45,201 bases of DNA from an uncultured Erysipelotrichaceae bacterium (GTDB lineage: Bacteria > Bacillota_I > Bacilli_A > Erysipelotrichales > Erysipelotrichaceae), in contig CAKMJZ010000032.1 in NCBI GenBank assembly GCA_927435855.1, positions 1 through 45,201 of the forward strand, in the 5' to 3' direction. Within the stretch, counting starts at the first letter, position 1, and every line of letters begins with the position of its first letter. The notes beneath the pieces are model-generated. The model saw only the letters and a list, made by a program, of their open reading frames with translations. It searched no databases and was not told where the DNA came from. A program made the position numbers and the translations under genes. This document shows, in pieces, positions 1,805 through 35,245 of the stretch.

Positions 1805-1832
1805 TCAAGAAAAAAGGGCATTCTAAGCCCTA
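1805..1832 (-). terminator. Intrinsic terminator of glgA overlapping its stop codon
   Basis: Reverse strand TAGGGCTTAGAATGCCCTTTTTTC hairpin plus U-tract. Confidence 0.75.
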
Positions 1833-3266
1833 TTTCAAACAGTCAGAATACACGCTGGCGTATTCGTCCGCCGATTTTTTCCAGCTGACATCTTTGCTCA
1901 TCGCATTGGCCATCAACTGCTTATAACCTTTAGATTTTTGATAATATGTAAAAGTTGCTATCCTTAAAACATGATACAAATCGTCACTGTTAAACTGCGC
2001 AAAACTAAAGCCCGTTCCTTCAAATGTCTCCAAATTAGCCGGGTCTACTGTGTCTTTTAAACCTCCGGTTTCACGGACCAACGGCAATGTACCATAGCGC
2101 ATCGCAATCAGCTGACTAATTCCACATGGCTCAAACAAAGAAGGCATCAATAACAAGTCCGCACCGGCATATATACGATGTGCCAACTCTTCGTTGTAAC
2201 CGCTATAGAATACCATTCGCTGACGATACTTTTCTTCCATATACTTTAACTGAGATTCCATGTGATGTTCACCAGAACCCAGGACCATTAACTGTAAATC
2301 TAATCCCATGATATCAGCCATTCGCTCGATGATTAAATGTACGCCTTTTTGCCAGGTCAACCGTGATACCATCGCAACCACGAAAACATCCTTGGCTTCA
2401 CGTAGGCCCAACTCCCTTTGTATAGCGACTTTATTCTTCGCTTTTCCGGTCAGCTTTTTCGAACTATACTTCTCAGCGAGTGTCTCATCCAATTGAGGAT
2501 CCCAGGCATCAACATCGATACCATTAACAATCCCCACCAGATCCAGTTTTCTAAAGCGCAATACCTCTTCCATCTTTTCTCCAAACTGCGGCGTCAAAAT
2601 TTCTTGAGCATAACTTGGAGATACAGTTGTAATTTTGTTTGCGTATAAGATTCCTGCTTTCATAAAACTGATTCCGTCATTGAAATGTAACGTTCCGTCA
2701 TATAAAAGCGACATTGGCAAGCCCAAACAACTTTGAAGCATTTCTCCTGGGAAGTTGCCTTGATAAGCTAAATTATGAATGGTATAAACATGCTTGATCT
2801 TTTTATAGCGTTCGTCATGTCCGTAATACTGACTGCATAACACTGGAATCATTCCGGTATGCCAGTCATGAGAATGAACGATGTCTGGGAAGTAGTCCAA
2901 AAAGCCAAAGGACATCAATACCGCATGAGAGAAATATGAGAAACGCTCTCCGTCATCTGGATAACCATAGAGTCCCTCGCGCTCAAAATAGCCGGCGTGC
3001 TCAACAAAATTAAATGTTACGCCTTGATGATTATATTCATAAACCGTCGCATACGTGTGAACTGTACCGGCATGGACTTGAAAACCTGTTTTACGCTCCA
3101 TTTTATCACGATACTTCACAGCTACCTTTTGATACATCGGCAAGAATACTCGTACCTCATAGCCCTTCTTAAGAAGTTCTTGAGGAAGTGAACCGACCAC
3201 ATCTGCCAGTCCGCCGCTTTTAATAAACGGCAAGCTTTCCGATGCTACAAAACATATTCTTGTCAT
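1830..3266 (-). CDS. glgA: Glycogen synthase (ADP-glucose), GT5
   Basis: 478 aa; N-terminal KSGGLADVVGSLP and C-terminal SLFEPCGISQL / RETGGLKDTV motifs. Confidence 0.97.
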   Translation of the reverse strand: MTRICFVASESLPFIKSGGLADVVGSLPQELLKKGYEVRVFLPMYQKVAVKYRDKMERKTGFQVHAGTVHTYATVYEYNHQGVTFNFVEHAGYFEREGLYGYPDDGERFSYFSHAVLMSFGFLDYFPDIVHSHDWHTGMIPVLCSQYYGHDERYKKIKHVYTIHNLAYQGNFPGEMLQSCLGLPMSLLYDGTLHFNDGISFMKAGILYANKITTVSPSYAQEILTPQFGEKMEEVLRFRKLDLVGIVNGIDVDAWDPQLDETLAEKYSSKKLTGKAKNKVAIQRELGLREAKDVFVVAMVSRLTWQKGVHLIIERMADIMGLDLQLMVLGSGEHHMESQLKYMEEKYRQRMVFYSGYNEELAHRIYAGADLLLMPSLFEPCGISQLIAMRYGTLPLVRETGGLKDTVDPANLETFEGTGFSFAQFNSDDLYHVLRIATFTYYQKSKGYKQLMANAMSKDVSWKKSADEYASVYSDCLK

Positions 3267-3278
3267 AGTAAAACCTCC

Positions 3279-4394
3279 TTATATCCGATCGCGTCGCTTT
3301 ACGTAGATCGGTTGTCTAAATTCACCCTTCAATTCTTTAACTTCCAACACCTTCGAATTTTTATCGACAATAACATATTCCAAATGACTGTCCGTCCCCA
3401 CGATGACATTTGGCAATAAGATCGAATTAATAACGACAGCGCCTGGTTTGATAACAACACCACGACCGATGACACTATTGATAACAGTGCCTTCGATTTT
3501 ACATCCGTTGGATATCGATGAGTTAACAACGACAGCATCTTCTCCATAATGAGTCGGTGGGGAGTCGGAAGTGCGAGTCATGATTGGCCACATCGGATCA
3601 AACAATTGTTTGGCATTGGCGTAATTAGTCAACTCCAAATTTGCCCTTTGGTATTCTCCCAACGTATTGATTGAGTAAACTAATCCACGAACCATAAATC
3701 CCTTAACGACAAAGCGATCGTAATTATCACGAATAATATCCTTTAACCAGTAAACCGAGCTAGTTTTGTTTGCCAGTCCAATTAATTCAAGGAATAACTC
3801 ACGACTCATCACATAAGCTTCTAATGAGATATTACGACTCTTATTCTTTCCAAGATTGATTTCCGATGCAATGACTCTTTTTTCTTTATCTAAAGAAAGC
3901 ACTGTACATCCGATAAACGATTCCTTAGCCATATCCGTCGGTTTATAAACTATTGTGATATCAGCTTTATTAACTTTATGTGCTGCCAACACCGTCGAAA
4001 AGTCGATGGTATACACCATATAACTTGGAGCGATAATCACGTACTTTGACTTGGCTTCCTCAAGAAACTGGATATTTGAGTTAAATGCGTTTATATCTGT
4101 ATTGTATATTTCCGATTGAATCGGTTCTTCACCATGCATAATGCGAAGCTTGCCTTGCTTAGAATTGATATTATAGTGACGGCCGGTTCCAACGTGTTCA
4201 TACACCGAACGAGGCTTGTTTTTAACATATACTTGAACATTCGAAATACCCGAATTAGTAAAGTTTGACATAACAAAGTCAATCAAACGATAACGTCCCA
4301 TAAAAGTCAGTGATGGAACTGGGCGGTAATTAGCTAATCCCGTAACATCGACTGTAGCATCTTCAAAATTAATAATTCCCAATACTTGATTCAT
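3279..4394 (-). CDS. glgD: Glucose-1-phosphate adenylyltransferase regulatory subunit
   Basis: 371 aa; GlgC-like fold with degenerate N-terminus (MNQVLGIINFED...GRYRLIDFVMSNFTNSGI) and C-terminal left-handed beta-helix; lies between glgC and glgA. Confidence 0.93.
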   Translation of the reverse strand: MNQVLGIINFEDATVDVTGLANYRPVPSLTFMGRYRLIDFVMSNFTNSGISNVQVYVKNKPRSVYEHVGTGRHYNINSKQGKLRIMHGEEPIQSEIYNTDINAFNSNIQFLEEAKSKYVIIAPSYMVYTIDFSTVLAAHKVNKADITIVYKPTDMAKESFIGCTVLSLDKEKRVIASEINLGKNKSRNISLEAYVMSRELFLELIGLANKTSSVYWLKDIIRDNYDRFVVKGFMVRGLVYSINTLGEYQRANLELTNYANAKQLFDPMWPIMTRTSDSPPTHYGEDAVVVNSSISNGCKIEGTVINSVIGRGVVIKPGAVVINSILLPNVIVGTDSHLEYVIVDKNSKVLEVKELKGEFRQPIYVKRRDRI

Positions 4395-4408
4395 AGATGA
4401 CCCCTCCC

Positions 4409-5533
4409 TTACCGATTCTTCGCCACAAGTTCGATAAACTCACTGTGAGCATCACCGACCACGGCGTTTTCTCTGATTTCAATATCCTCCGCAACGATAC
4501 AACGCTGAACGATGGCTCCTTTACGAATGATTGAGTTAGGCATGATGACAGCGTCTTTGACCACAGCACCCTCCTCAACGATAACATTGGTAAACAAGAC
4601 GGAATTAATGATCGTACCATCGATTACACAACCTTGATTAATAATACTGCGCTTGACGGATGCATGTTCTTGAATGAAATGCGGAGGCGCAGCAACGTCT
4701 TCGGTATAGATACGCCAAGAAGGATCCATGATGTCCAACGTATTCGACTCATCCAATAAGTCCATGTTGGACTCCCATAAACTATCGATTGTCCCGACAT
4801 CTTTCCAATATCCTTTAAATCGCCAAGCAAATAAACGTTTGCCCGATTCAAGCATACCCGGAATGATGTTCTTACCAAAGTCATGGGCCGAATCATTTTC
4901 TTTTAAGTCATCAATCAATGCCCGACGCAAAAGTTTCCACGAGAAAATATAGATTCCCATTGAAGCCAGATTACTCTTAGGTTTCTTCGGTTTTTCTTCA
5001 AACTCATAGATTCGATCTTCAGCATCGACATTCATAATTCCAAAGCGTGAAGCTTCCTTCAGTGTTACTTCCAAAACAGCGATCGTCGCATCCGCTTTTT
5101 TTGCTTTGTGCTCAGCTAACATTTGTGAATAGTCCATTTTATAAATGTGATCTCCAGAGAGAATCAGTACGTATTCAGGACTGTACTGATCGATAAAATC
5201 GATGTTTTGTGTGATGGCATCCGCTGTTCCGCGATACATCCCAAAACCATCCGACTTTTCTCTCGGCGGTAAAACGTAAATACCGCTATCCTTGGCATCC
5301 AGTCCCCATCTTTGGTCTTGAGCAACATACGAGTTCAGTAAAACTGACTCATATTGTGTCAATACCCCCACTACATGAACGCCGGAATTAGCGCAATTGC
5401 TTAACGGAAAGTCAATAATGCGGTATTTCCCACCGAAAAAAACCGCAGGTTTCGCAACTTTATTCGTCAGTTCTTCCAACCGCGTTCCACGCCCACCAGC
5501 CAAAATCATTCCCAACATTTGGTTTTGTCGCAT
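4409..5533 (-). CDS. glgC: Glucose-1-phosphate adenylyltransferase
   Basis: 374 aa; [49 protein letters not shown]. Confidence 0.97.
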
Positions 5534-9369: not shown

Positions 9370-10029
9370 CTATAAACGCCAGTTAATCGGCGATCGATCA
9401 TGCTTTTTTAAAAAATCATTTGTCTTACTAAACGCCCGCGAACCAAAGAATCCGTGATACGCCGATAGCGGTGAGGGATGGGGTGCTTTTAATATTAAAT
9501 GACGCTCATTGAAGATCAACGATTCTTTCATTTGAGCATTTCTTCCCCAAAGAACAAAAACGATTGGCAAAGGATGTTGATTGCACCGCTTAAGTACTTC
9601 ATCTGTAAAAATCTCCCACCCTTTATTCTGATGAGAATTGGGTTTACTCTCTTCAACTGTAAGCACGGTATTTAACAACAGTACGCCTTCCTTCGCCCAA
9701 GGAACCAGATATCCGCTTTCAGGAAAGGGTAAGTTTAAGTCATTGCTATACTCCTTGAAAATGTTCTGAAGACTTGGGGGAAAGGGGGTTTTAGGTTTTA
9801 CAGAAAAACACATACCATGAGCTTGATTTGGCTGATGGTAGGGATCTTGACCGAGAATCACAACCTTCAGATCATCATAATCCGTATATCCAAAACAAGA
9901 AAATACATCTTCTTTCTTCGGATAAATGGTTTTTGTGCCATATTCCTTCGTCAGAAAAGCGGAAAGATCTTTAAAATATGGCTTCTCAAATTCATCTTTT
10001 AAAAACTGTGTCCAACCGTTTTGAAACAT
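9370..10029 (-). CDS. ung: Uracil-DNA glycosylase family 1
   Basis: 219 aa; VVILGQDPYHQPNQAHGMCFSV, LLLNTVLTVEESKPNSHQNKGWE, HPSPLSAYHGFFGSRAF. Confidence 0.97.
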   Translation of the reverse strand: MFQNGWTQFLKDEFEKPYFKDLSAFLTKEYGTKTIYPKKEDVFSCFGYTDYDDLKVVILGQDPYHQPNQAHGMCFSVKPKTPFPPSLQNIFKEYSNDLNLPFPESGYLVPWAKEGVLLLNTVLTVEESKPNSHQNKGWEIFTDEVLKRCNQHPLPIVFVLWGRNAQMKESLIFNERHLILKAPHPSPLSAYHGFFGSRAFSKTNDFLKKHDRSPINWRL

Positions 10030-11296: not shown

Positions 11297-12649
11297 TTAA
11301 CGATTATTCTCTGATAACCAAGATTCGTATAGACTGATGAATTGTTGTTGAGCATCCGTAGGTGATAGTTCTTGTTTGAAAACAGATTTCAAAATACTCA
11401 TAAAGTCAGCTTCAAGATAAAAGTCAAAGCCAAGCTTCGTGGTATTTTCTGGAAGTGCGACAATCGGTTCAATTTCGCTATACGTAAAAGCAAGACTCAT
11501 CTGACGGCGATTTTCCGACATTTCGAAACTTTCAAGTTGATCTCTTGGTATGACCAACACTTTTTTTGTCGAATCCAATGCGACTTGGGTAGTTTGAGAT
11601 GTTGATAGAATTCTTAAAATTTCTTGAGTAAGAGAAGGTGCTTCATTTTTCAAAGCAACCAATCCAGTTACGATGACCAAGGGTTTTAGTTGTTGGTCTT
11701 GATATGTCGGAAATGCCGAAAATACATAGTCCACACTTTTAAGTTCTTCAATTTCTTCAATAAGCATCCACGGACCGGCCATTCCAAATGGAGATATTTG
11801 ATCATTGATTACCTTTTCGTAACGCCAATTGTCCTTGGGTTGAGGGCTGTAATCCCAAGTTACTTTACCTAATTGAGCAATGAAGTCAAGTGAAGCAAGG
11901 AAATTATCATCTTCAAATCCTGGCTGAGTAGCATCGTTATCACTAAACATATGCCAGTTCCCTGCCGTCAAAAAAGGATAGAATTGCCACCTCTCAACAA
12001 ATGTAATCGGAAAAACGATTTGAACTTTATTATTATTATATAAACCCGGCTGACTTTCCCATTGTTTTGCTAACTCTATCAAGTTTTCCCAACTTGAAAA
12101 CATTTGTGGAAGATTAGTTTCAGTCACCTGACTAAGATCATATCCTAATGATTCAAGCATGGTTCTATTATAGACAAACAGTAATCCCTGATAGGAAAAA
12201 GGGCGAAATATAACTCCGTTTGCGTTGATAACTTCAGTAAACTGTATGATTCCTTCAACGCTTTGATTATTGGAAATCCGAGAATCAAATGGTGTTAGTT
12301 GATCGTAAAGTAAAGCTGCCTGATGAGTATCGGTGTAGAAAATATCTATGCCCAAGTCCAAAGCTTGTTGTGCAGATAGGTTTTCAATAATTCTGAAATC
12401 AAAATTCACGGTATGTCCGGGATGTGCTTGGTAGAACTGGTCTAAAAACCAGTCTAGCATTCCTTTTGAAGGTAAAGCCACAGTGATTTTTGATCGTTCT
12501 TCTACTTTAAAAATTTTACTATCTAAATCGTAACAAATCGTTTCTCCGTCCACACGACAAAAGTCACCACTTATGTAACTCGAATATACATATCCGCCGC
12601 CGACTAATGTCAAAACTGCGATTATAATTCCAATCATCCATTTACGCAC
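11297..12649 (-). CDS. Membrane-anchored extracellular solute-binding protein, MalE-like (family 1)
   Basis: 450 aa; N-terminal TM segment without a clear lipobox; CRVDGETICYDLDSKIFKVEERSKITVAL parallels CDPETMDGTSVCYDSATGTFAVEKGATIRFGV of malE at 30215-31615; further shared blocks (FSSWENLIELAKQW / FDTWEEIFALSTAW; GNWHMFSDNDATQPGFEDDNF / AGWQLFGSGDPTKPGYDDPKF). Confidence 0.85.
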   Translation of the reverse strand: MRKWMIGIIIAVLTLVGGGYVYSSYISGDFCRVDGETICYDLDSKIFKVEERSKITVALPSKGMLDWFLDQFYQAHPGHTVNFDFRIIENLSAQQALDLGIDIFYTDTHQAALLYDQLTPFDSRISNNQSVEGIIQFTEVINANGVIFRPFSYQGLLFVYNRTMLESLGYDLSQVTETNLPQMFSSWENLIELAKQWESQPGLYNNNKVQIVFPITFVERWQFYPFLTAGNWHMFSDNDATQPGFEDDNFLASLDFIAQLGKVTWDYSPQPKDNWRYEKVINDQISPFGMAGPWMLIEEIEELKSVDYVFSAFPTYQDQQLKPLVIVTGLVALKNEAPSLTQEILRILSTSQTTQVALDSTKKVLVIPRDQLESFEMSENRRQMSLAFTYSEIEPIVALPENTTKLGFDFYLEADFMSILKSVFKQELSPTDAQQQFISLYESWLSENNR

Positions 12650-14688: not shown

Positions 14689-14702
14689 GCAAAGCGCTTA
14701 CA
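14689..14702. promoter_or_regulatory. cre-like site upstream of the maltosyltransferase-like gene
   Basis: gcaaagcgcttaca, reverse complement TGTAAGCGCTTTGC, 12/14 to consensus; upstream of candidate -10 TAGAAT. Confidence 0.45.
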
Positions 14703-14735
14703 TTCATGATAGAATAACTTGTGAAAGGGGAGAAT

Positions 14736-16829
14736 ATGATGAGCTATCTCGATAAAATCGTTACAAGTCTTGCAAAGCAAGAACAACAAAATAAAGCAAT
14801 ATTCAACTATGTCATCCCAGATTTGTGGGACAGTGCGGATGTGAAAGTCGATAAGATTGATGTTAAAAACGGAAATCTGATTATCAATCCGTATCAGTTT
14901 TTTCAAACACTGATCAAGGATGAGTTTTTAAACATAAACAAAAAGAAAGCTGATTTTTCTAAACCCTATTACTTGGGTCAACCCAAACATAAAATCAAAG
15001 GTTTGAAGAATGGAGATTGGATTCGACAAAGTTTTGCTTATTCAATGATGATTCGCTCTTCTGCCAGTTACGATCATGATCGCAGTGGTCGCTTGGAAGA
15101 GTTTAACCTATATAATCTTAAGGAGACCGGTACTTTTGTCAAAGCATTGGCCTATTTGCCCCTACTTAAGAAAATGGGTGTTGATGTCGTGTATATGTTA
15201 CCCATATCTAAGTATTCACTAAAGGATAAAAAAGGCGAACTTGGCTCTCCGTATGGTGTTTCCAACTTCTTCAAATTGGATGAGGGACTTAAAGATCCGA
15301 TGACTGGTCCCGATTGCACGGTAGAAGATGAATTCAGAGCATTTGTGGAAGCGTGTCATCGATTGGATATGAAAGTTATTATTGATATCATCCCGAGAAC
15401 TAACTCCGTTAATTCCGATTTGATTATTGAACATCCAGATTGGTTCTACTATATCGCACTAGACGACATTCAAGATTATGCTTCTCCTTACTGCCCTGGA
15501 TTAAAGGCGGCTCTTCCCGCAAAGAAAGAGTACTTTGAACAAGTATTCGCATCCCAAGAAGTCATTGCTCATATCAAAAAATTTAAACCCAATCCCAAAG
15601 ACACAAATCCGGAATTATGGAAAAAATTAGTCAAGAAGTGGAAAGATGGCAATGGAAAATATGAAGTACTGGATTTAGTCCAAGAAATGTTTGGTCTGAC
15701 GATTGCTCCTGCTTTCTCCGATTGTATCAATGATCCCCAACCGGCTTGGAGTGATGTAACGTTCTTCCGATTGTACCTTGATCATCCAGCTAATTCTCAA
15801 CCTTACTTAAAGGATTTGGGAGAAGTTCACCCATATATTCTCTTCGATGTAGCGAAGTCCAGTTTAAATCCCGGTACGATTCGTAATACTGAACTATGGA
15901 ACACTCTGGCCGATATCATTCCGTTTTTCCAACGTGAATTTGGTATCGACGGTGCCCGAATTGACATGGGCCACGCCCTTCCAGATGAATTGATCAAAAT
16001 GATTTTGACAAAAGCAAGAGATATCGACCCTAACTTCTGCTTTATCGCCGAAGAACTAGATGTTGAAAACGCCAAAACATCCAAACAAAAAGGTTATAAC
16101 ATGATTATCGGTGACGGATTTATCCGTTTGCCTCGAGTACAGGAAGGTTTGTTTAACTCCTTTGTCTATGGTGCTATGAATCTGGAATCGCCTTTGTTCT
16201 CCGTAGGTGAAACTCACGACACTCCTCGTTTGGCGGCTCGTGACGGTGGTGAAACGTTGGGTAAAATGGTTTCAATCTTCAATCTCTTTGTACCCAATAC
16301 TATTCCATTCTTAAATAGCGGTCAGGAAGTGTATGAGCGTCAGCCGATGAATACTGGATTGGACTGCAGACCCAATGAGTTATATATGTTGGACAAGGAA
16401 GATCCATACTATGGTAAGCTAGCATTATTTGATCGTTACGCTTTCCATTATAATCATAAACATCGCTGGGAAATTCCAACAGCTCTGGAGAAAGCATCGC
16501 ATATCCGCAATGAGTACATTGACGCCATGATGGACATGAGCAATGTCTATCCGTTAGGATTCAGTGCTCCCTGGGATACGGCCGCCGGCTTTGGTTATAT
16601 AAACAAAGATAAAATCCTTTTGGCGATTACAAATACGGATATGCACAATGAAAAGTATCATTATGTTCAGCTGGATAATCTGCCTGAATACTTCTTAGCA
16701 CCTGATAGAAGAATCGTTCAGTTGTTCTCGTCAGAAGACAACCTGCCTAAAGAATTATTAGTCAATGAACATCGCGGATTGAATGTCCACTTTGTTCCCG
16801 GTGAAGTTAAGTTGCTGGAAATCAGATAA
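14736..16829 (+). CDS. GH13 protein similar to Thermotoga-type maltosyltransferase
   Basis: About 697 aa; FGIDGARIDMGHALPDELI, CFIAEELDVE, VGETHDTPRLAARDGGE, PNTIPFLNSGQEVYERQPMNTGLDC; no signal peptide. Track start 14721 is a GTG upstream of the RBS GGGGAG; ATG at 14736/14739 preferred. Confidence 0.7.
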   Translation: MMSYLDKIVTSLAKQEQQNKAIFNYVIPDLWDSADVKVDKIDVKNGNLIINPYQFFQTLIKDEFLNINKKKADFSKPYYLGQPKHKIKGLKNGDWIRQSFAYSMMIRSSASYDHDRSGRLEEFNLYNLKETGTFVKALAYLPLLKKMGVDVVYMLPISKYSLKDKKGELGSPYGVSNFFKLDEGLKDPMTGPDCTVEDEFRAFVEACHRLDMKVIIDIIPRTNSVNSDLIIEHPDWFYYIALDDIQDYASPYCPGLKAALPAKKEYFEQVFASQEVIAHIKKFKPNPKDTNPELWKKLVKKWKDGNGKYEVLDLVQEMFGLTIAPAFSDCINDPQPAWSDVTFFRLYLDHPANSQPYLKDLGEVHPYILFDVAKSSLNPGTIRNTELWNTLADIIPFFQREFGIDGARIDMGHALPDELIKMILTKARDIDPNFCFIAEELDVENAKTSKQKGYNMIIGDGFIRLPRVQEGLFNSFVYGAMNLESPLFSVGETHDTPRLAARDGGETLGKMVSIFNLFVPNTIPFLNSGQEVYERQPMNTGLDCRPNELYMLDKEDPYYGKLALFDRYAFHYNHKHRWEIPTALEKASHIRNEYIDAMMDMSNVYPLGFSAPWDTAAGFGYINKDKILLAITNTDMHNEKYHYVQLDNLPEYFLAPDRRIVQLFSSEDNLPKELLVNEHRGLNVHFVPGEVKLLEIR

Positions 16830-16834
16830 TACAA

Positions 16835-16864
16835 AACAAAAGCAGAGAAATCTCTGCTTTTGTT
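16835..16864. terminator. Bidirectional terminator between convergent genes
   Basis: aacaaaagcagagaaatctctgcttttgtt, near-perfect inverted repeat with A/T flanks. Confidence 0.85.
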
Positions 16865-16866
16865 GT

Positions 16867-17898
16867 TCAATCCGTGATTTTTGTCATTGAAGCAGGAAAA
16901 TCGTAATCTGAGATAGGCAAAATCTGACCAAATGCACTAAATCCAATCTGTGAACCTTTGTGCATTTTCCCATACTTTATGTATAATTGTTTGGCTTGTC
17001 CAGGCTCATACTTTATATATAGAGTTTTGGCATCAAGAAATCTATCCGCAAAAAACTCTATACCTTGTTCATATGTAGATTTAACCCGATATGACTTTCC
17101 ATTTCTGTTAAACGAAACGATTACCTGATCAATATTTTTAATCCAAGTAAAATTTGGGTTAGATTCTGAAACAAGTTCAACAGATGCTATTCTTTCTACT
17201 TTGCCATCGATGGTAACTCTTATCACTTCATCAGCAGTATATTCATCGCTCTTATAGTTTTCCGGATCTTCTTTCGCAATGTCAAAAGCAATATCATAAA
17301 CGCCATTCCAATCCATGATCTCTGAGAAGATGTAACCCTTCCTTACATATTCCCACCCTCGTACGATATCAAATGAAGCGCTGAAAAGTTGTTTTATTTC
17401 ATACTGATATATCCCGTCCTGATACGTTTCCGTGATCACGGCTTCGTATTGTGTATCGGCTATCTTGGTCAGTTCGCTCTTGATTTCACCAGGTATAAAG
17501 ATTCTACGCAAACTTGAATATATTCCTGTTCCCCGTTGAAAAGCCAGAGAGCTCTTTACCATTTCGGCATCAACAGCTTTCGAAGGTATGGTTTGATGAA
17601 TAACTAAATCATTTTGTTGAAGAGTCAGTTTTCCTTTATCCTTAGTATAACTCAATGTTGATACTCCAATAATCATTACTGCATCTGTCGATAAGGTCAC
17701 ATCATACTCAACTAATAGTGTCTGATCGGTTTCTGTTCTAATCTTTTCCACGATATCTTTCGAAACAAATCGAAAATGATTAATCGTCTTATGTGACAAT
17801 AGATCACTAAATATTTGCTCGGAATCATCGGTTTTCTGACACCCGAAAACCGTAGTAATCAGAATCATGATCAGAAATAGCACTTTGATGATTTTCAT
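16867..17898 (-). CDS. Uncharacterised lipoprotein
   Basis: 343 aa; MKIIKVLFLIMILITTVFGCQK lipobox; no family recognised. Confidence 0.75.
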   Translation of the reverse strand: MKIIKVLFLIMILITTVFGCQKTDDSEQIFSDLLSHKTINHFRFVSKDIVEKIRTETDQTLLVEYDVTLSTDAVMIIGVSTLSYTKDKGKLTLQQNDLVIHQTIPSKAVDAEMVKSSLAFQRGTGIYSSLRRIFIPGEIKSELTKIADTQYEAVITETYQDGIYQYEIKQLFSASFDIVRGWEYVRKGYIFSEIMDWNGVYDIAFDIAKEDPENYKSDEYTADEVIRVTIDGKVERIASVELVSESNPNFTWIKNIDQVIVSFNRNGKSYRVKSTYEQGIEFFADRFLDAKTLYIKYEPGQAKQLYIKYGKMHKGSQIGFSAFGQILPISDYDFPASMTKITD

Positions 17899-25115: not shown

Positions 25116-26210
25116 TTATCTTATGATCGCTTTTTGCGTTTCCTTATCGAAGAAATGCAATTTTGTAACTTCCATTGCCAAGGGGATTGTATCATGGGCT
25201 TTAACATTAACACGTGAAGGAACTTTGGCCAAAATCGGTTGATTGCCGAATTTACCATGAAGAATAAACTCATGCCCTAGAAGTTCACTAACTTCAACAT
25301 AGAAATCAAACGGTGTTTCAGGGAAAGTTTCCGCGACTATGCCTTCATAATGAATGTCTTCCGGACGGATGCCCAATACGACTTCCTTACCATTGTAATT
25401 TTTTAGTTCATTGTGATACATTTCCGGAATGACGAATGAGCGGCCATCAACTTCGTAACGTCCGTCACGATATACACCGTGAATGAAGTTCATCGCAGGA
25501 GCACCGATAAAGTTAGCCACAAACATATTGACCGGATGATTGTAAACATCACGCGGAGCACCGATTTGTTGGATGTATCCATCTTTCATAACAACGATAC
25601 GACTAGCCATCGTCATAGCTTCGGTTTGGTCATGGGTAACATAAACCGTAGTTGCATCAAGACGTTCATGTAGTTTAATGATTTCCGAACGCATTTGAAC
25701 ACGTAATTTCGCATCTAAGTTAGACAAAGGTTCATCCATCAAGAATACCTTCGCGTTACGAACGATTGCACGACCCAAAGCAACCCGCTGACGCTGACCG
25801 CCGGAAAGAGCTTTAGGTTTACGATCTAAATATTGTTCGATTTCCAAAATCTTCGCTGCTTCACGAACGCGTTGCTCAATTTCATCTTTCGGCATTTTTC
25901 TTAACTTCAAACCAAACGCCATATTATCAAAAACCGTCATATGCGGATACAAGGCATACGATTGAAATACCATCGCTATATCACGGTCTTTTGGAGCGAC
26001 ATTGTTAACCAAACGGCCATCAATGTACAACTCACCACTGGTAATTTCTTCCAAACCGGCAATCATACGTAAAGTCGTCGATTTTCCGCATCCGGAAGGA
26101 CCAACCAAAACAATGAATTCCTTATCTTCAATTTCTAAGTTAAAATCAAATACAGCTTGAACATTGTTATCATAAATTTTTTGAATGTCCGTAAGTTTTA
26201 ATGTTGCCAT
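25116..26210 (-). CDS. Carbohydrate ABC transporter ATPase, MsmX/MalK/UgpC type
   Basis: GPSGCGKSTTLRMIAGLE, LSGGQRQRVALGRAI, VFLMDEPLSNLDAKLRVQMR plus C-terminal TOBE. Start MATLKLTDIQ at 26210 (AGAGGTG RBS) preferred to track start 26270. Confidence 0.95.
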   Translation of the reverse strand: MATLKLTDIQKIYDNNVQAVFDFNLEIEDKEFIVLVGPSGCGKSTTLRMIAGLEEITSGELYIDGRLVNNVAPKDRDIAMVFQSYALYPHMTVFDNMAFGLKLRKMPKDEIEQRVREAAKILEIEQYLDRKPKALSGGQRQRVALGRAIVRNAKVFLMDEPLSNLDAKLRVQMRSEIIKLHERLDATTVYVTHDQTEAMTMASRIVVMKDGYIQQIGAPRDVYNHPVNMFVANFIGAPAMNFIHGVYRDGRYEVDGRSFVIPEMYHNELKNYNGKEVVLGIRPEDIHYEGIVAETFPETPFDFYVEVSELLGHEFILHGKFGNQPILAKVPSRVNVKAHDTIPLAMEVTKLHFFDKETQKAIIR

Positions 26211-26244
26211 AGTTTCACCTCTGCCAATATTATAACTCAAATAA

Positions 26245-26275
26245 ATAAAAATGATTTGTGCATTACGCACAAATC
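26245..26275 (-). terminator. Intrinsic terminator upstream of the MsmX-like ATPase gene
   Basis: Reverse strand GATTTGTGCGTAATGCACAAATCATTTTTATTT. Confidence 0.7.
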
Positions 26276-26277
26276 AA

Positions 26278-26850
26278 CTAATTGTTTCTTGTTTTTATCA
26301 GCCACCACAACTGAAACAATCGAGCATGATGAAAATCTCGGATATCTAGCTGTGTTTTCTCAATGAACTGATTTAGACGGTAGGCGAAAGTGTTTCGATG
26401 AATATATAGTCGAGCAGCAGCAAATGTCGCCTTGCATCCTGAAGTTATAAATGCTTCTGCGGTTTGAACTAACTCTCTAGATAATGGTTCAAATTGCTTA
26501 TCTAATGATGTGAACAAAGTATTCTCACCTTCAATACGCTCATAAAGCAAAGCGTCAGCCAAGTAAATCATACTGCCCTTACTATGACGCACAGCAACAT
26601 TCAACCCCTGATAAGCAACATCATCCCAACGATGAGTGATAACTACCGTCATCACGATGCCAAGTGTCTGATTTAAATGCGACATCAATACTTCAATCAA
26701 TCCCAAATCCTCTTCCTCAAGTTCAAAATAGCCATGACTTTTACTTAATATGGTAACCGTTTTAGTTGAATCAAAAATCAGCGCACAGCTTTCTGAAAAA
26801 GATGTAGAACTTATTCCCTCGGAGAGTTGATATCCAGCGATCTTTCTCAT
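26278..26850 (-). CDS. PucR/CdaR-type helix-turn-helix regulator (short form)
   Basis: 190 aa; C-terminal AARLYIHRNTFAYRLNQFIEKTQLDIRDFHHARLFQLWWLIK typical of PucR C-terminal HTH. Confidence 0.8.
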   Translation of the reverse strand: MRKIAGYQLSEGISSTSFSESCALIFDSTKTVTILSKSHGYFELEEEDLGLIEVLMSHLNQTLGIVMTVVITHRWDDVAYQGLNVAVRHSKGSMIYLADALLYERIEGENTLFTSLDKQFEPLSRELVQTAEAFITSGCKATFAAARLYIHRNTFAYRLNQFIEKTQLDIRDFHHARLFQLWWLIKTRNN

Positions 26851-28448
26851 GGATTTACGCGATAGACGACCATCGCACGAGGTGATAGACTGATTTTATC
26901 TGAATCAATTGAAACACTACCTAATGTAAATAGTGGCTCCACTTTTGCAAGAACTTCCGCATCAAACTCACCGACCATCGGACCGTTATAAAAGTTACTA
27001 ATGATTAAGAAGCGATTCTTTTCATCCGATCGATAGTAACCTAAGACCGAACTGTTTTTCAGAGTTACTTGCTCCATATCCCCCCAGATAAAGGTGTCCG
27101 AATATGTTTTTCGTAATTGAATCAAATCTCGATAATGCGTCCATAACGAATTTTCATCTGCTTGTTGTTCAAGTACATTCGGTGTTTCCCAATTGTATAT
27201 CCATTGATTCCAATAAGCCACCTCACTGGTGATATCATCGTTCCAACGCATCGGTTCTCGAATTCGCTCATCTGGCTTAACCCCAAGCATACCGATTTCT
27301 TCACCATAATAAACAAACGGCAATCCTGGCATGGTCAATAAAAGCCCGGCAGCGATTTTTGCTTTGTCGACACTTCCCGCAAACAGACTCATAACACGGT
27401 TTTGATCGTGATTAGTCAAAAACGGTGAGTCAACGTAATTTGGATTTCGATCCGTCAGTCTTATTACATTATCAAGATGCTTCTGAATCAGATTTCCATG
27501 ATTACCAACATTCAATGCACTAATAACCATCTCACCAAAATCAAAATTAAACATCGTATCATAAGCATGCGCGTAAGGCGCTTGATTTTGTGCCGTATCC
27601 CAAATTTCAGAAACCAAGAAGAAGTCTGATTTGTATTCCTTAATAAACAAACGCAACTCCATCCAGAACTGTAAATTCTTTTCTAACGTTGGTGTTCCAA
27701 CTGGATATTCATCTGGATAATAAGCGTGCTTCGCAGCGTCAAATCGAAATCCGTCTACACCCAAATCAATCCAATATTTCGAAATTTCACGGATTTCATC
27801 ACGAACTGCTTCGTTTTCAAGATTCAGTTCCGGCATTTTATCCCAGAACCACGCATAATAAAACTTACCTCCTGCGTTTTTCCAGGCATTTCTTGTCGGA
27901 TATTCTTGAAGATCAAGTTTTTCTTCGATCCGATAATAATTAACATATGGCTCCTCCCCTCGAAGAGCTGCCTTAAACCAAGGATGGTCATAAGCTGTAT
28001 GATTAAAAACCATATCTAAAATAATCTTAATTCCGCGCTTGTGAGCTTCTTCGAGCAATTCCTTAAAATCATCGATCGTCCCAAACTTTGGATCAATGGC
28101 TTTATAGTCCAAAATATCATACTTATGATATGTTTGAGAAGGATAAATCGGTGTCAACCAAATAGCCTGAATACCCAAATCTGTATCTGTATTGGGATCT
28201 CCATCATTAAGATAGTCTAACTTATTAATGATTCCTCGAATATCGCCTAAACGGTCAGTATCACTAGTCGCAAAAGATATCGGAAAAATCTGATAGGCAA
28301 CACTGACATTCGCCAAAAAATCCGTTGAATCGTAATCTGCTAGTGCTAATCGTAATTCATCGACTGTTTTGCTTTTATTTTCAGGTTCTTTCGGCGCGCA
28401 ACCCAGCACTAACCCCAGGATTAATAAACTGACAAGAATTTTCCTCAT
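26847..28448 (-). CDS. Secreted lipoprotein alpha-amylase (GH13)
   Basis: 533 aa; MRKILVSLLILGLVLGCAPK lipobox; IILDMVFNHT, GVDGFRFDAAKHAY, VSEIWD, FLTNHDQNR. Confidence 0.92.
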   Translation of the reverse strand: MRKILVSLLILGLVLGCAPKEPENKSKTVDELRLALADYDSTDFLANVSVAYQIFPISFATSDTDRLGDIRGIINKLDYLNDGDPNTDTDLGIQAIWLTPIYPSQTYHKYDILDYKAIDPKFGTIDDFKELLEEAHKRGIKIILDMVFNHTAYDHPWFKAALRGEEPYVNYYRIEEKLDLQEYPTRNAWKNAGGKFYYAWFWDKMPELNLENEAVRDEIREISKYWIDLGVDGFRFDAAKHAYYPDEYPVGTPTLEKNLQFWMELRLFIKEYKSDFFLVSEIWDTAQNQAPYAHAYDTMFNFDFGEMVISALNVGNHGNLIQKHLDNVIRLTDRNPNYVDSPFLTNHDQNRVMSLFAGSVDKAKIAAGLLLTMPGLPFVYYGEEIGMLGVKPDERIREPMRWNDDITSEVAYWNQWIYNWETPNVLEQQADENSLWTHYRDLIQLRKTYSDTFIWGDMEQVTLKNSSVLGYYRSDEKNRFLIISNFYNGPMVGEFDAEVLAKVEPLFTLGSVSIDSDKISLSPRAMVVYRVNP

Positions 28449-28452: not shown

Positions 28453-30144
28453 TTAAACTCCCTTCGCCCTTAAAATACGAAACTCATAGGGCAAAAAATC
28501 ACTTCCAGAATTCTCGAAATTAGAACAAACACAATCATACTTTTTATATTCAAAATCAAACATTACTTTTGTATCTCGGAAATTGGCAATCATGACGACC
28601 TCATCCGTGTCGACATACCGACGATAAGCAAATATATCCGGATGCTCTTTTTGAATCAATCTAAATTTCCCATAAATCAATACATCTTTTAAATCACTGT
28701 TCAATCGTAATTGAGTCAGTCGTTTGTACATAGATAACACTGAATTCTCATCCATTTGTTGATTCTTCACATTAATCGTCTTATAGTTTCCAACAGTCTT
28801 CAAATGCGGTATTCCTGTAGTAAATCCGGCATTTTCACTGTCATCCCATTGCATCGGTGTGCGAGCATTGTCTCGCGATGCCCGACGCAAATGCGTCAAT
28901 ATCTGCTCTTCACTGATGCGCTTGCGAGCTGAAGGAACAAAATTTCTGACCCATACATCTCTAAACTCATCCACTGACTCATAATCGACATTCGTCATCC
29001 CAATCTCTTCACCGTTATAAATAAAGGGTGTTCCTGGTAGAGTTAATAACACCGCTCCTAACATCTGAGCGGAAACACGATGATACTCCCCGATGTCACC
29101 ATATTGAGATACCACACGGGGATGATCATGATTTAGCCAGTACTGAGGCATCCAAACTTTACTTTCACTTCCCAAAATCCACCGTTCAAGCGTTGTCTTA
29201 AGATCAATGACATCCGTCGTTAGTTTGCCTTTAGTTCGGCCCTCATCTTCAAAAGCACCATTTTTCCAACAGTGATCAAAATTGAATACCATATTAAATC
29301 CTTTAGTACGGTAACCGGCATAACGCTCAGCTTCTTCCACCTGAGCACCACCTCCGACCTCCCCTACCGTTACACAGTCATAATGAGCTAATACTTCATC
29401 GTGAAACTCAGCTAAGTAATCAAAAAGACGGTCACGATTTGAAAATTTTCGCCAATCCGGAGCATAATGCCCAGGTTTAACATTCATCGTACTGTCTTTA
29501 AAGGTTGTATCCTTAGCCAGATGAGCGATCGCATCGACTCTAAAACCATCAACACCTAAATCCAACCACCACTTCGACATTTCTGCCATGGCCATTCTCA
29601 ATTTAGGATTTTCCCAATTTAAATCAGGCATCTTATTAGAGAATATCTTCATATAGTACTGGTTGGTATGTTCATCATAATTCCAACAGGATCCCTCAAA
29701 GAAACTCGCCCAATTATTGGGAGGTATCATGTTTCCTGTCTTGTCATATTTTCCATCTTGCCAAATATACCAATCACGTTTTGGATTGTCTTTACTGCTT
29801 CTTGATTCCACAAACCATGGATGTTCATCGGATGTCTGATTCATCACCAAATCCAAGATGACACGAATGCCCCGATCATGTGCTTGCTTGATTAATTCTT
29901 TTGCATCGTCTAACGTACCAAACAATCCATCAACAGTATAAAAATCACTGACATCATATCCATTGTCATCCATCGGTGATTTATAAAATGGGCAAATCCA
30001 AATAAGATTCACACCTAACTGAGCGATATAATCTAACTTTTCGATGATTCCAGGTAAATCACCGATGCCATCACCATTGGTATCTTTATATGAACGAGGA
30101 TAAATCTGATATCCGACGGTTTCCATCCACCATTGTTTCTTCAT
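28453..30144 (-). CDS. Alpha-glucosidase (GH13, oligo-1,6-glucosidase/alpha-glucosidase family)
   Basis: 563 aa; ETVGYQIYPRSYKDTNGDGIGDLPGI, VILDLVMNQTSDEHPWF, GVDGFRVDAIAHL, VGEVGG, WLNHDHPR. Confidence 0.93.
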   Translation of the reverse strand: MKKQWWMETVGYQIYPRSYKDTNGDGIGDLPGIIEKLDYIAQLGVNLIWICPFYKSPMDDNGYDVSDFYTVDGLFGTLDDAKELIKQAHDRGIRVILDLVMNQTSDEHPWFVESRSSKDNPKRDWYIWQDGKYDKTGNMIPPNNWASFFEGSCWNYDEHTNQYYMKIFSNKMPDLNWENPKLRMAMAEMSKWWLDLGVDGFRVDAIAHLAKDTTFKDSTMNVKPGHYAPDWRKFSNRDRLFDYLAEFHDEVLAHYDCVTVGEVGGGAQVEEAERYAGYRTKGFNMVFNFDHCWKNGAFEDEGRTKGKLTTDVIDLKTTLERWILGSESKVWMPQYWLNHDHPRVVSQYGDIGEYHRVSAQMLGAVLLTLPGTPFIYNGEEIGMTNVDYESVDEFRDVWVRNFVPSARKRISEEQILTHLRRASRDNARTPMQWDDSENAGFTTGIPHLKTVGNYKTINVKNQQMDENSVLSMYKRLTQLRLNSDLKDVLIYGKFRLIQKEHPDIFAYRRYVDTDEVVMIANFRDTKVMFDFEYKKYDCVCSNFENSGSDFLPYEFRILRAKGV

Positions 30145-30214: not shown

Positions 30215-31615
30215 TTACTTATTGTCTGCTTCAATAGCAGCATCGGACAGTTCAATCAACTCAGCGACTGCATCAGCGATTGACAGTGTGCCATCCCAGA
30301 TAGCTCTTTCCGTATTGGAAATAAACGGATAGTATGCGGAATCCATCGATTTGCGTGCTTTGTTATTCGGTAACAACAATGCCGGTTCCGGATAGTTGTA
30401 AACGAATGCGCTCATCATTTGTTCTTGAATACCACCAGCCGTCAATGTCGGAACCAAATTGGAACCATCAACCAACGATGGAGCATACGAAGTTCCGGTA
30501 ACCATTGCTTGGAAACCGTCTTTCGAATAAACAAGTCTCATTAATTCGGTAGAAGCCGAACGCCATTTTGTGTAAGCGTTGATTACGAAACCTTTAGTCT
30601 TAACAAACGGACTTTGGTTGATTCCGTTGTACGTCGGAACTGGTGAAATCATAAATGTTGAACCAGTCGTTGTTTGAGCGGCAGCAACATCCATCCATGT
30701 ACCAACTAAACCAAACGGAGCAATTTCTTCATTGATAACATTATCCCAACGCCAGCCCATCGAGTCAGCCGGAGAAACTTCGCCAGATTCTTCAACAGAA
30801 ATCTTAGCAGCTTTTGCGTCAAGAATGAATTGTAAACCAGCAGCAAATTTCGGATCATCATAGCCTGGTTTTGTCGGATCGCCTGAACCGAACAATTGCC
30901 AACCAGCTGATGTCAAGTGATGATAATCAGACCATTGGTTTGTCAAAGACATTGGGAATACAACATTTACCTTTTTGCCTTTGTATTCCGGACGTGTAGT
31001 TGCCCAAGCGGTCGATAATGCGAAGATTTCTTCCCAAGTATCAAATGCATCCGGCAAATTATCGCCATCAGCATCAGCAGTACTTAAACCTAAAGCTTCA
31101 AGCATAGTTTTGTTCCAGATAAATGCCATACCGTCATAAGTCATCGGTGCATAGTGAACGACGCCATCGGTAGCATTACCAGCATTAAAGAAAGATTCAA
31201 CCGAGTTTGCTTTTACGATTTTCGCAAGTTCAGCATGCATCGGCAGTAAGTGAGAAGAGTTACGCGGAGTTTCACCGTCGATAGCCATAAATACATCCGG
31301 CCATTCGCCTTGTTGAACAGCAACACTGTCCGTTGATCCTTGTGAACCGGAGTTAACATATTCAACTGTGCCGGCCAATTCTGGATAAGTCTTGTCCCAC
31401 AAAGCAACGATTGCCTTACCCCAAGTTTCATTATCAACACCAAAACGAATCGTAGCGCCTTTTTCAACTGCGAAGGTACCGGTAGCGGAGTCGTAACAGA
31501 CCGACGTTCCATCCATAGTTTCCGGATCGCAGTCAGGTTCTGTGTTTCTTGGACTGCATGCTGCGACGGAGAACGTCATTGCGATTATAGCCAAGAAAGT
31601 TAAAAATTTTCTCAT
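30215..31615 (-). CDS. malE: Maltose/maltodextrin ABC transporter substrate-binding lipoprotein
   Basis: 466 aa; MRKFLTFLAIIAMTFSVAACSPRN lipobox; family 1 SBP; located with malF/malG and maltodextrin enzymes. Confidence 0.9.
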   Translation of the reverse strand: MRKFLTFLAIIAMTFSVAACSPRNTEPDCDPETMDGTSVCYDSATGTFAVEKGATIRFGVDNETWGKAIVALWDKTYPELAGTVEYVNSGSQGSTDSVAVQQGEWPDVFMAIDGETPRNSSHLLPMHAELAKIVKANSVESFFNAGNATDGVVHYAPMTYDGMAFIWNKTMLEALGLSTADADGDNLPDAFDTWEEIFALSTAWATTRPEYKGKKVNVVFPMSLTNQWSDYHHLTSAGWQLFGSGDPTKPGYDDPKFAAGLQFILDAKAAKISVEESGEVSPADSMGWRWDNVINEEIAPFGLVGTWMDVAAAQTTTGSTFMISPVPTYNGINQSPFVKTKGFVINAYTKWRSASTELMRLVYSKDGFQAMVTGTSYAPSLVDGSNLVPTLTAGGIQEQMMSAFVYNYPEPALLLPNNKARKSMDSAYYPFISNTERAIWDGTLSIADAVAELIELSDAAIEADNK

Positions 31616-31663
31616 TTTTAAAATTTCCCTCCTGAAATTTCTGCTTCTAGTGAAGCTAATTAG

Positions 31664-31700
31664 ATTATATCACTAAGATTTTGCGATGTAAACGGTTACA
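31664..31700 (-). promoter_or_regulatory. malE promoter overlapped by operator/cre-like palindrome
   Basis: Reverse strand TTTACA - 17 bp - TATAAT; TGTAACCGTTTACA (31687-31700) covers the -35. Confidence 0.65.
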
Positions 31701-31793
31701 CCTACCGTCAACGATCGCGATAAGACGCTAGATAAGTATCAAAAATCGCAAAAATATCATCAAAATTGTGTTATAAAGACCGTTTCTTGGATA

Positions 31794-31809
31794 ATAAAAC
31801 GTTTTCGCA
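31794..31809. promoter_or_regulatory. LacI-family-operator-like site
   Basis: ataaaacgttttcgca containing perfect AAAACGTTTT. Confidence 0.35.
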
Positions 31810-31879
31810 ACTCATATCTTGAGTAAATTCACAGTTATTATCAGAAGATTCCAGAGTCCCCAAAAATGTCGGATTTCTA

Positions 31880-31893
31880 TGTAATCGTTTTCA
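31880..31893. promoter_or_regulatory. cre-like site
   Basis: TGTAATCGTTTTCA, 13/14 to cre consensus. Confidence 0.45.
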
Positions 31894-31899
31894 TGAGGT

Positions 31900-32712
31900 T
31901 TATTCTACCGGTTTCTGATCAAGTTGTGTCTTCATCATAGTTCCATACAGAAACACAATGCGCACCACAAAGAAAATCGGGAAAATAATAGAAGCAGTCC
32001 CCGGCATAAACAGTGATAAGAAGGCCATCAAAAGTGCAGGAGAAAACATGGCTAACACAAGCATATTCAATACTTCACCATATTTCCAACGTTGTCCGGT
32101 CTGTTTGGTATTGATAAACATCATAAACATTGAAACGACCAGAATATAAATAGCATATTGAACCATCAAACCTATGTAGATAATGACTAATTCAAAGCTC
32201 AAATTGCTCAAAGCCATATTCCTTAGATAAACACCCGACCACTCCTTAGGATCTATCTGATAAGTTGTAAAGTTTTCTCTTAACTCCTCAAATGATATAT
32301 CTCCAAATGTGTAGAGCCCATATTGATAGTTCGTGCTGGTTTTTGATATTAGAAAAGAATCATTGTAAAAAACGATCACATTTTCCGTTTCTTTTATCTC
32401 AGTATCTGGAAGAAGGTATATTTTGTATGTGTCACCTTCAACAATCAAAGTCTTTTGGTCGCAAAGAAAATATCCTTGTTTGAATTCACATTCTTGCGAT
32501 TGAATCAACTCATAAAAGTCCTCGTGAAAGCCCTCAAAGTTTAATAAAAGTTCTTCCCCGGTCGTACTGAATTTCCCTACAAAGAAAGGTACAGATACAA
32601 TAAATGCTGAGAAAAGAAACAAAATCACAGTTTTATACCAACGGATTTTGCGATGCTTGATTACTGCTTGATTACTAATCAAAACATCCGAAAATTCCTT
32701 AAAGAATCCCAT
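31900..32712 (-). CDS. DUF1189-like maltodextrin-operon membrane protein
   Basis: 270 aa, several TM segments; after malF-malG. DUF1189 proteins (YvdJ, MalA) occur in maltodextrin operons; the call rests on topology and context. Confidence 0.6.
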   Translation of the reverse strand: MGFFKEFSDVLISNQAVIKHRKIRWYKTVILFLFSAFIVSVPFFVGKFSTTGEELLLNFEGFHEDFYELIQSQECEFKQGYFLCDQKTLIVEGDTYKIYLLPDTEIKETENVIVFYNDSFLISKTSTNYQYGLYTFGDISFEELRENFTTYQIDPKEWSGVYLRNMALSNLSFELVIIYIGLMVQYAIYILVVSMFMMFINTKQTGQRWKYGEVLNMLVLAMFSPALLMAFLSLFMPGTASIIFPIFFVVRIVFLYGTMMKTQLDQKPVE

Positions 32713-32721
32713 GCTGCCTCC

Positions 32722-32750
32722 TTAAAAAGGTGCAATTTGCATTGCACCCA
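32722..32750 (-). terminator. Terminator-like hairpin between malG and the DUF1189-like gene
   Basis: Reverse strand GGTGCAATGCAAATTGCACCTTTTTAAGGAGG; the U-tract abuts the next RBS. Confidence 0.6.
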
Positions 32751-32754
32751 AACA

Positions 32755-33624
32755 TTAACCCTTTTCGGCTCCGGCTGTCAATCCGTAGACCATATACTTT
32801 TGCATAAAGAACTGGATAATCATGATTGGAATCGCAATCAAGAGTGCACCTGCCATAAACCTCAATGGATTGTAGAACAGTGTATTGAACGGATCGGTTG
32901 TTCTAAATAACCACACAGCAACTGTCATATTCTCAGGTTGTAAGAATCTGAACTGAAGAATGAAATCTAGCCACGGAGTCATAAAAGCACTAATTGAAAT
33001 AAAACCAATGATCGGAACAATCAATGGAAGCAAGATCATTCGCAATATTTGAAGAGGTGTTGCTCCATCGATTGAAGCAGCTTCATCCAACGACTTAGGT
33101 ATATTTCTCATAAAACCGCGAACCAAGAAGGTATTGTATGGAATAGCCCCGGTCATATAAATTAAAGCAAGGTAATTTGGTTTATTTAAGAAACCAAAGG
33201 TTCTAAATAAAAGGAACAAAGCAACCATTCCCATAAAGGATGGGAACATTTGTAAAACCATCATCGTCAGTAACATTTGCTTCTTACCAGTAAAGCGCAA
33301 TCGAGCAAATGCATAACCAGTCAGTGTTGAAAGTAATGCAACACCGACAGTATTTATAATGGCTATTTGGGCGGTCCGAAGGAATGCACCTGGGAAATCC
33401 GCAAGTACTTGAGCCGCATTGGATTTATATTCAAAAATAAAGTTGTAATGTTCCATGGTAAACCTAGTTGGATCAGGAATTAACGGAACGGAAGTCAATA
33501 AACGTCCCGGTGTAAAAGCTGCGGATATCATCCAAAGGATAGGAACCAACACGATTACACAAGCTATCAACAACCATGCATAGGCCAAAAATCCGAGAAC
33601 GTAATCGATAAATTTGCGTTGCAT
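32755..33624 (-). CDS. malG: Maltodextrin ABC transporter permease
   Basis: 289 aa; EAA loop SLDEAASIDGATPLQILRMILLPLIVPI; C-terminal KYMVYGLTAGAEKG. Confidence 0.93.
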   Translation of the reverse strand: MQRKFIDYVLGFLAYAWLLIACVIVLVPILWMISAAFTPGRLLTSVPLIPDPTRFTMEHYNFIFEYKSNAAQVLADFPGAFLRTAQIAIINTVGVALLSTLTGYAFARLRFTGKKQMLLTMMVLQMFPSFMGMVALFLLFRTFGFLNKPNYLALIYMTGAIPYNTFLVRGFMRNIPKSLDEAASIDGATPLQILRMILLPLIVPIIGFISISAFMTPWLDFILQFRFLQPENMTVAVWLFRTTDPFNTLFYNPLRFMAGALLIAIPIMIIQFFMQKYMVYGLTAGAEKG

Positions 33625-33625
33625 A

Positions 33626-35191
33626 TTAATCCTCCTCCCATAAGCCCTTCGAGCGTGACAGATTGTATACCGAAATGAACCCTACGAAAGCAAAGATCAA
33701 TATGGAATAAACAGCCGCAACGTTGTACAACTGCGCATTATTAGCAAATGACAGGTTATATATCCAAGAAATCAAGATATCCGTTTGACCGGGTATACCT
33801 CCAGATAGTTTCATTGACATCGGAATCAAGGCATCATCCCAACGCGGACCACCTCCGGTCAAGAAGAAAATCGCGCCGAAGTTATTAAAGTTAAAAGTGA
33901 AGGTCATTACAATGGCTGGTACCGTTGCCTTTAAAATCAATGGCAAGGTAATGTTTTGGAAACTCTGCCACTTTGAAGCGCCATCAATCGAAGCAGCCTC
34001 ATATAAATCTTTGGGCAATGTCGTTAACACACCGGTAATCAACATCATGAAGTACGGAGCTCCCAACCACAAGTTAACTAATATGACGACTACCTTAGCC
34101 AGATTGCCATTGTATACAGCCGAGAACCAGAAGATCGGATTATCCAACGCTCCTTGCAAGCCAATTCCATAAAGGAAACTCGAGACACCGTTCATAGTTC
34201 CGGTCATGTAGAGCAATTGATTTGCTAATCCGTTAGTTTCAAAAACATTTCTGAATACCATCAAAGAAATCATCGCTGGAACTGCCCAAGGTACGATCAA
34301 TATTGTACGCCAGAGTTTCTTCACTTTGACATAACGAGATTCAATGATGATGGCTTGAATCATTCCTAAAATATAGCAAGATGCTGATGCCATGATAGCG
34401 TACACGAAAGTCCATCCTAGAACTTGCGAGAAAATCTTAAACCATCCTGCATCTGCAACGATGAGTTTAAACGTATCAAAACCTACCCACTTAATCAATT
34501 GATTAGGAATCGGTATCCGATAGGTATAGTTGGTAAAGGCTAGTAAGAATGAAAATAAAAACGGAATTAACGTAAAGAATAATATCATAATCAACGCCGG
34601 AACCAACACAATATAAGGGAACATGTCGCTCCATAAACGGCGCACATACACTAATCCGGTCTCAATCGTTTCACCGCGTAAATGAGCTTTTCGACTTATA
34701 TAAGCATCCCGAATATTCATAAGCCAGAAAGTTAGGAAGATTCCTGATAATATTAGTGCGATTAACCCTGTTCCTAAAAGAGTTACAGAGTTATCGGCTG
34801 TCAACCAAGGAATGGTCTTATTAAACGTTTCTACAAACTGACCGCGATATAAGATTTGACCAGGGACTTTACCTAAGGTGAACAAACCCCATAGTCCCTT
34901 GGATATCATACCGCCATAATCGCGAAAGAAGTATAACGGTGTTCCCGAATCCGCCGGAAACCGCGATATCTCATCCATTGCATACTGATAGTTCCCTGTT
35001 AATAATTCGGCTAATAGAAAAACGAGAAGTACGCTGAAGAATACAGCTGCTTTTGATTTTTGTTTATTACGGAGTTGACCCAATCCCATAATAAAAAAAG
35101 ACATGATAGCTGACTTTAGCGGATCTGGATTTTTCTTAACGTCAGAGAAAATATTCTTTATCCTTTCGAACAATGATTTTTTCTTCTTCAT
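33626..35191 (-). CDS. malF: Maltodextrin ABC transporter permease with extended N-terminus
   Basis: EAA loop LYEAASIDGASKWQSFQNITLPLILKA, FNNFGAIFFLTGGGP. Start MKKKKSLFERIK at 35191 after GGGAGGATTTCAC preferred to track start 35239. Confidence 0.93.
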   Translation of the reverse strand: MKKKKSLFERIKNIFSDVKKNPDPLKSAIMSFFIMGLGQLRNKQKSKAAVFFSVLLVFLLAELLTGNYQYAMDEISRFPADSGTPLYFFRDYGGMISKGLWGLFTLGKVPGQILYRGQFVETFNKTIPWLTADNSVTLLGTGLIALILSGIFLTFWLMNIRDAYISRKAHLRGETIETGLVYVRRLWSDMFPYIVLVPALIMILFFTLIPFLFSFLLAFTNYTYRIPIPNQLIKWVGFDTFKLIVADAGWFKIFSQVLGWTFVYAIMASASCYILGMIQAIIIESRYVKVKKLWRTILIVPWAVPAMISLMVFRNVFETNGLANQLLYMTGTMNGVSSFLYGIGLQGALDNPIFWFSAVYNGNLAKVVVILVNLWLGAPYFMMLITGVLTTLPKDLYEAASIDGASKWQSFQNITLPLILKATVPAIVMTFTFNFNNFGAIFFLTGGGPRWDDALIPMSMKLSGGIPGQTDILISWIYNLSFANNAQLYNVAAVYSILIFAFVGFISVYNLSRSKGLWEED

Positions 35192-35245
35192 GTGAAATCC
35201 TCCCATCTTTATTATGCACATAACAATAATAAATTTCAACTAAAT

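Follow-up and report, generated by a model that had tools for sequence, protein, structure and literature searches.

The closest described relative of the protein considered here is the maltosyltransferase (MTase) of Thermotoga maritima (PDB 1gju/1gjw; Meissner and Liebl 1998, doi 10.1046/j.1432-1327.1998.2581050.x, as cited in PMC1851020). Two other enzymes are relevant for comparison. GlgE (alpha-1,4-glucan:maltose-1-phosphate maltosyltransferase) shares the GH13 fold and the transfer of maltosyl units, but it uses maltose 1-phosphate as the donor and belongs to another subfamily. MalQ, or amylomaltase (GH77), has the same presumed job in the cell beside glycogen phosphorylase, although it comes from a different family and its donors vary in length. 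In T. maritima MTase, Lys151 and residues 314-317 are reported (Roujeinikova et al. 2001) to block the donor cleft beyond subsite -2 and thereby to enforce maltosyl transfer. T. maritima differs from the system described below in having other glucanotransferases besides MTase, among them a separate GH13 4-alpha-glucanotransferase (1lwh).

The window, that is, the whole stretch of 45,201 nucleotides that was analysed, is an entire contig from a 1.57-Mb genome (69.7% complete). The nearest named relatives of the protein come from Erysipelotrichaceae MAGs (90-93% identity), which makes the host an uncultured Erysipelotrichaceae bacterium. The initial annotation had reported a GH13 gene at 14736-16829 of the plus strand, among only two long genes on that strand. 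Both observations hold, as an ORF encoding a GH13 protein of 697 aa from ATG 14736 (P0001) was recovered there and just two plus-strand ORFs of at least 150 aa exist in the window. With high confidence, the gene is predicted to encode a 1,4-alpha-glucan maltosyltransferase like that of T. maritima, acting in the cell in place of MalQ; its product appears to be cytosolic, as no signal peptide is evident on reading the sequence. In-frame starts were read at GTG 14721, ATG 14736 and ATG 14739. Translation starts at ATG 14736 or ATG 14739, the latter being better spaced from, and the best fit to, a Shine-Dalgarno-like GGGGAG read directly at 14727-14732 (plus strand).

Downstream, a terminator-like stem-loop of 13 pairs (16835-16864, minus strand) lies between the MTase gene and a convergent gene for a lipoprotein-like protein of 343 aa (16867-17898, minus strand), which has no Pfam match and adjoins MTase only in some congeners. 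Upstream, a cre-like palindrome with two mismatches to TGWAARCGYTWWCA (14689-14702) is weak evidence for catabolite repression and was rejected as a cre site, since 16 such sites occur in the window against a chance expectation of 8.85, which is near chance.

Family assignment and active-site residues

In a phmmer search against the PDB, P0001 matched T. maritima MTase (1gju) best, with E=1.3e-139 and 470 bits over residues 14-599, and the second-best structure scored 58 bits. The two proteins are 42% identical; they have in common full-length homology, the fold, the catalytic residues, Lys151 and the Trp and Asp of residues 314-317, but P0001 exceeds the T. maritima chain (637 residues) by about 60 residues. 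An AlphaFold2 model built from 28 homologues (pLDDT 90.9, pTM 0.92) retrieved 1gju at Foldseek rank 1 (E=1.9e-59, TM 0.85/0.93; next match E=1.9e-20), far above amylases and GlgE. In a 42-protein tree, P0001, T. maritima MTase and their homologues were split from six other GH13 proteins of the window (SH-aLRT 97). T. maritima MTase was nested beside Thermobrachium inside the MTase group, where the position of the root is not settled because the outgroup branches are very long. Pfam and NCBIfam give no family name for P0001, their GH13 matches being partial and low-scoring, and the profile search produced no match to PF02446 (GH77 MalQ). The earlier proposal of an MTase rather than a hydrolase is therefore upheld by sequence, tree, predicted fold and residue table, all of which group P0001 with T. 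maritima MTase, and the GH13 tree that included the latter gave no placement in a hydrolase clade. As the enzyme family is already known and characterised, P0001 simply adds an ordinary member to the T. maritima MTase type.

The sequence blocks that had been quoted as T. maritima-like are all present on the plus strand and match closely, except at one position of region IV. The region I variant DIIPRTNS (residues 217-224; 15384-15407), which is without the usual NH, corresponds to DFIPRTAA in the PDB alignment. Region II, GARIDMGHALP (residues 406-416; 15951-15983), contains Arg408 and the nucleophile Asp410 and reads GARLDMGHALP in T. maritima, and region III, IAEELD (residues 437-442; 16044-16061), contains the acid/base Glu439 and is the same in both proteins. 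The family-specific block C-terminal of region IV is GQEVYERQPMNTGLD (residues 529-543; 16320-16364), the T. maritima block being GQEIGEKQPMNLGLD. In region IV itself (residues 492-498; 16209-16229), where Asp495 is the transition-state stabiliser, the T. maritima sequence ETPDTPR is absent from P0001, which has ETHDTPR like most of its homologues. With His494 in place of Pro the active site is not identical to that of T. maritima MTase, but Pro recurs in members from Clostridium, Caloramator, Thermobrachium and Paenibacillaceae; since both residues are found at this position, it does not define the family.

The GH13 catalytic residues Arg408, Asp410, Glu439 and Asp495 are all present in P0001. 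In the alignment, Lys166 (codon 15231-15233) is equivalent to T. maritima Lys151, and within QPAWSD (residues 335-340; 15738-15755) the residues A337-W338-S339-D340 align with T-W-D-D at positions 314-317. We take Lys166 and residues 337-340 to be the counterparts of the T. maritima elements reported to close subsite -2, and by sequence both elements (Lys166 and AWSD) are found in P0001. Among the active-type MTases of the residue table (active-type being defined by an identity of at least 40% over most of the length), Lys166, Trp338, Asp340 and the four catalytic residues are invariant.

Glycogen and maltodextrin genes of the window

The MTase gene lies in a window rich in glycogen and maltodextrin genes. 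A glycogen/maltodextrin phosphorylase (39303-41705, minus strand; PF00343) is the expected partner enzyme. GlgA, GlgD and GlgC for glycogen synthesis (1830-5533, minus strand) and the branching enzyme GlgB (41763-43598, minus strand) were assigned by reading, as was the pairing of glgD with glgC at 3279-5533 (ADP-glucose pyrophosphorylase and a regulatory-type partner). Further members are a GH13 enzyme of the neopullulanase or maltogenic amylase type (35319-37049, plus strand; 1sma, E=1.9e-148), a GH13 alpha-glucosidase or oligo-1,6-glucosidase (28453-30144, minus strand; 2ze0, E=3.1e-169) and a pullulanase. A lipoprotein amylase at 26847-28448 was rejected as a candidate 4-alpha-glucanotransferase, with 210 bits to 1lwh versus 348 bits to the amylase 1wza; its lipoprotein-type N-terminus suggests that it is probably located outside the cytosol. 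Also by reading, a maltodextrin ABC importer comprises a binding protein, two permeases and a DUF1189-like protein (30215-35239, minus strand) and an ATPase (25116-26270). Three cre-like sites with one mismatch each occur around the importer genes (31687-31700, 31880-31893 and 35246-35259). A solute-binding-like protein of 450 aa (11297-12649, minus strand), for which Pfam gave nothing at E 1e-5, resembles the malE-like protein at 30215-31615 and is kept beside MTase in several congeners.

Within such a pathway, MTase would operate by the retaining double displacement of GH13, with Asp410 as the nucleophile, Glu439 as the acid/base and the assistance of Asp495. The maltosyl unit at the non-reducing end of a donor maltodextrin would be cleaved off and passed to an acceptor, either another maltodextrin or glucose; the donor cleft would be closed after subsite -2 by Lys166 and the loop around Trp338, and for this reason only maltosyl units are proposed to be transferred. 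Phosphorylase would stall on short maltodextrins, from which MTase would rebuild longer chains that phosphorylase can use, and the neopullulanase and alpha-glucosidase would consume short leftovers. This scheme sets out the activity, strict maltosyl specificity and physiological role that we infer for MTase; some transglycosylation could be supplied by neopullulanase-type enzymes of the same cluster.

Distribution of MTase and MalQ among genomes

The initial annotation saw no MalQ in the window and suggested that MTase acts in place of a 4-alpha-glucanotransferase. There is indeed none among the window genes, and PF02446 is absent from the host genome as well; as this genome is 69.7% complete, the absence there rests mainly on the congeners, all six of which lack PF02446, including two that are near-complete (G002, 98%; G005, 99%). 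In a sample of 245 genomes of the family, MalQ (PF02446 above the curated cut-off) was identified in none of the 32 genomes with an active-type MTase and in 194 of the 213 without one. The corresponding numbers in a phylum-level sample of 392 genomes were 0 of 38 and 133 of the remaining 354. Seven MTase genomes are common to the two samples, and among the genomes searched, including 63 distinct ones with an active-type MTase, none has both this enzyme and an above-cut-off MalQ. Fisher tests of the exclusion gave 4e-27 (family) and 8e-8 (phylum), values that ignore kinship. Sub-threshold PF02446 matches were found in three MTase genomes (G101, G107 and G269; E 3.5e-4 to 6.5e-4).

On an RpoB tree of 72 of these genomes, at least eight independent switches between MTase and MalQ fall on branches with good support, and in each independent pair the gain of one enzyme goes with the absence of the other (sign test p=0.008, conditional because the genomes were picked for having MTase or MalQ). 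For instance, one genome of genus g51 (G154) has MalQ without MTase and its sister genomes have MTase; likewise, MTase is found in genus g76 of family f3, and MalQ in the sampled sister genera. Active-type MTases occur in nine family-level groups of the bacterial class, and the enzyme is thus not a Thermotoga oddity. Active-type MTases with 50-52% identity were also seen in MAGs labelled Holophagaceae and Hahella (L060, L061, L062), reflecting either horizontal transfer or mislabelled bins. Because the genomes searched in the class never combine MTase with MalQ, MTase very probably does MalQ's job, and the suggested replacement gains support beyond the window from the exclusion in the 63 genomes and the repeated switches on the species-marker tree. 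This displacement pattern appears to be undescribed in the literature searched, and a literature search of limited reach found no paper on MTase in Erysipelotrichaceae.

The phosphorylase family PF00343 was detected in all 46 active-type MTase genomes tested, in 15 of 15 MalQ-only genomes and 10 of 10 with MalQ and a divergent MTase homologue, and in none of the nine with neither enzyme. At four loci (L065, L067, L081, L116) a phosphorylase gene comes 40-137 bases after the MTase gene on the same strand, and an alpha-glucosidase gene precedes the MTase gene. Of the control genomes, T. maritima has PF00343 with PF02446 undetected, and B. subtilis has PF00343 without PF02446, which means that a need of phosphorylase for MalQ or MTase is not universal. 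A GH57 glucanotransferase was rejected as a hidden MalQ substitute, its matches being confined to 10 of the 46 MTase genomes and all weak and partial.

The replacement of MalQ by the P0001 family across the class would also be expected of a general 4-alpha-glucanotransferase on an MTase scaffold, with MalQ-like products of varied unit length, and the loop AWSD differs in part from the T. maritima TWDD; this explanation is nevertheless unlikely, given that Lys166, Trp338 and Asp340, aligned with the elements reported to close subsite -2 in T. maritima MTase, are conserved in the active-type set. The exclusion of MalQ would not be expected at all of a maltodextrin hydrolase that resembles maltogenic amylases and is related to MTase incidentally. 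The GH13 fold and a distant local similarity to the amylases 3dhu and 4gkl are compatible with such an enzyme, but tree and fold put P0001 with MTase and not with hydrolases, and neopullulanase, alpha-glucosidase and amylase genes are already in the cluster, leaving a hydrolase very improbable. The case for a GlgE-type maltosyltransferase that builds glycogen from maltose 1-phosphate consists of weak local sequence similarity and distant Foldseek matches (ranks 3 and 5-9). Its sequence matches reach at most 28 bits versus 470 for 1gju, its fold matches show 13-15% identity and an rmsd of 4.8-6.2, and the GlgA, GlgC and GlgD of the window already serve glycogen synthesis, so that this possibility is hardly credible.

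Divergent homologues and evolutionary significance

Divergent MTase homologues with 29-33% identity were identified in 10 genomes from six genera of the same family, all of which have MalQ (L117-L126; for example, 7242-9299 of L121, plus strand). The eight sampled proteins form one clade of the 42-protein tree (SH-aLRT 100), as do the six sampled hosts in the RpoB tree (support 91). None of the ten homologues retains Arg408. Six have E, G, Q, S or T at the position of Asp410, and the other four, which keep that Asp, carry N or T instead of Glu439; the Lys166 and Trp338 elements have likewise disappeared. Their dN/dS values (0.06-0.14 for the closer pairs) indicate that they appear to be kept by selection, and judged by their sequences they are candidate pseudoenzymes under purifying selection, for which a role as a glucan-binding regulator is a guess. 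A clade of such putatively dead homologues appears to be undescribed in the literature searched.

Seven of the ten divergent genes lie near ung. Among the active-type loci (L037-L116), ung is found at 38 of 80, always on the opposite strand, within 1 kb in 16 cases and in many families. In the window, this neighbourhood comprises 9370-10029 and 14736-16829, and it is conserved without an obvious functional reason. The proximity of both divergent and many active-type genes to ung suggests that the divergent genes descend from the gene in the old position. On balance, we slightly favour a scenario in which MTase and MalQ are interchangeable and were swapped repeatedly in the class, and in which MalQ took over in one lineage of Erysipelotrichaceae, the old MTase being kept catalytically dead but selected, perhaps as a glucan-binding regulator.

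The interest of the gene lies in the clean, repeated exclusion of MalQ and in the selected, putatively dead clade. MTase, known experimentally from one hyperthermophile, emerges as an alternative to MalQ that is widespread among bacteria storing glycogen, and its hosts include the gut genera Holdemania and Turicibacter as well as wall-less relatives. Pathway predictions that seek MalQ would score such genomes as incomplete. In the Erysipelotrichaceae, natural pairs are available in which enzyme replacement and the origin of a pseudoenzyme can be tested.
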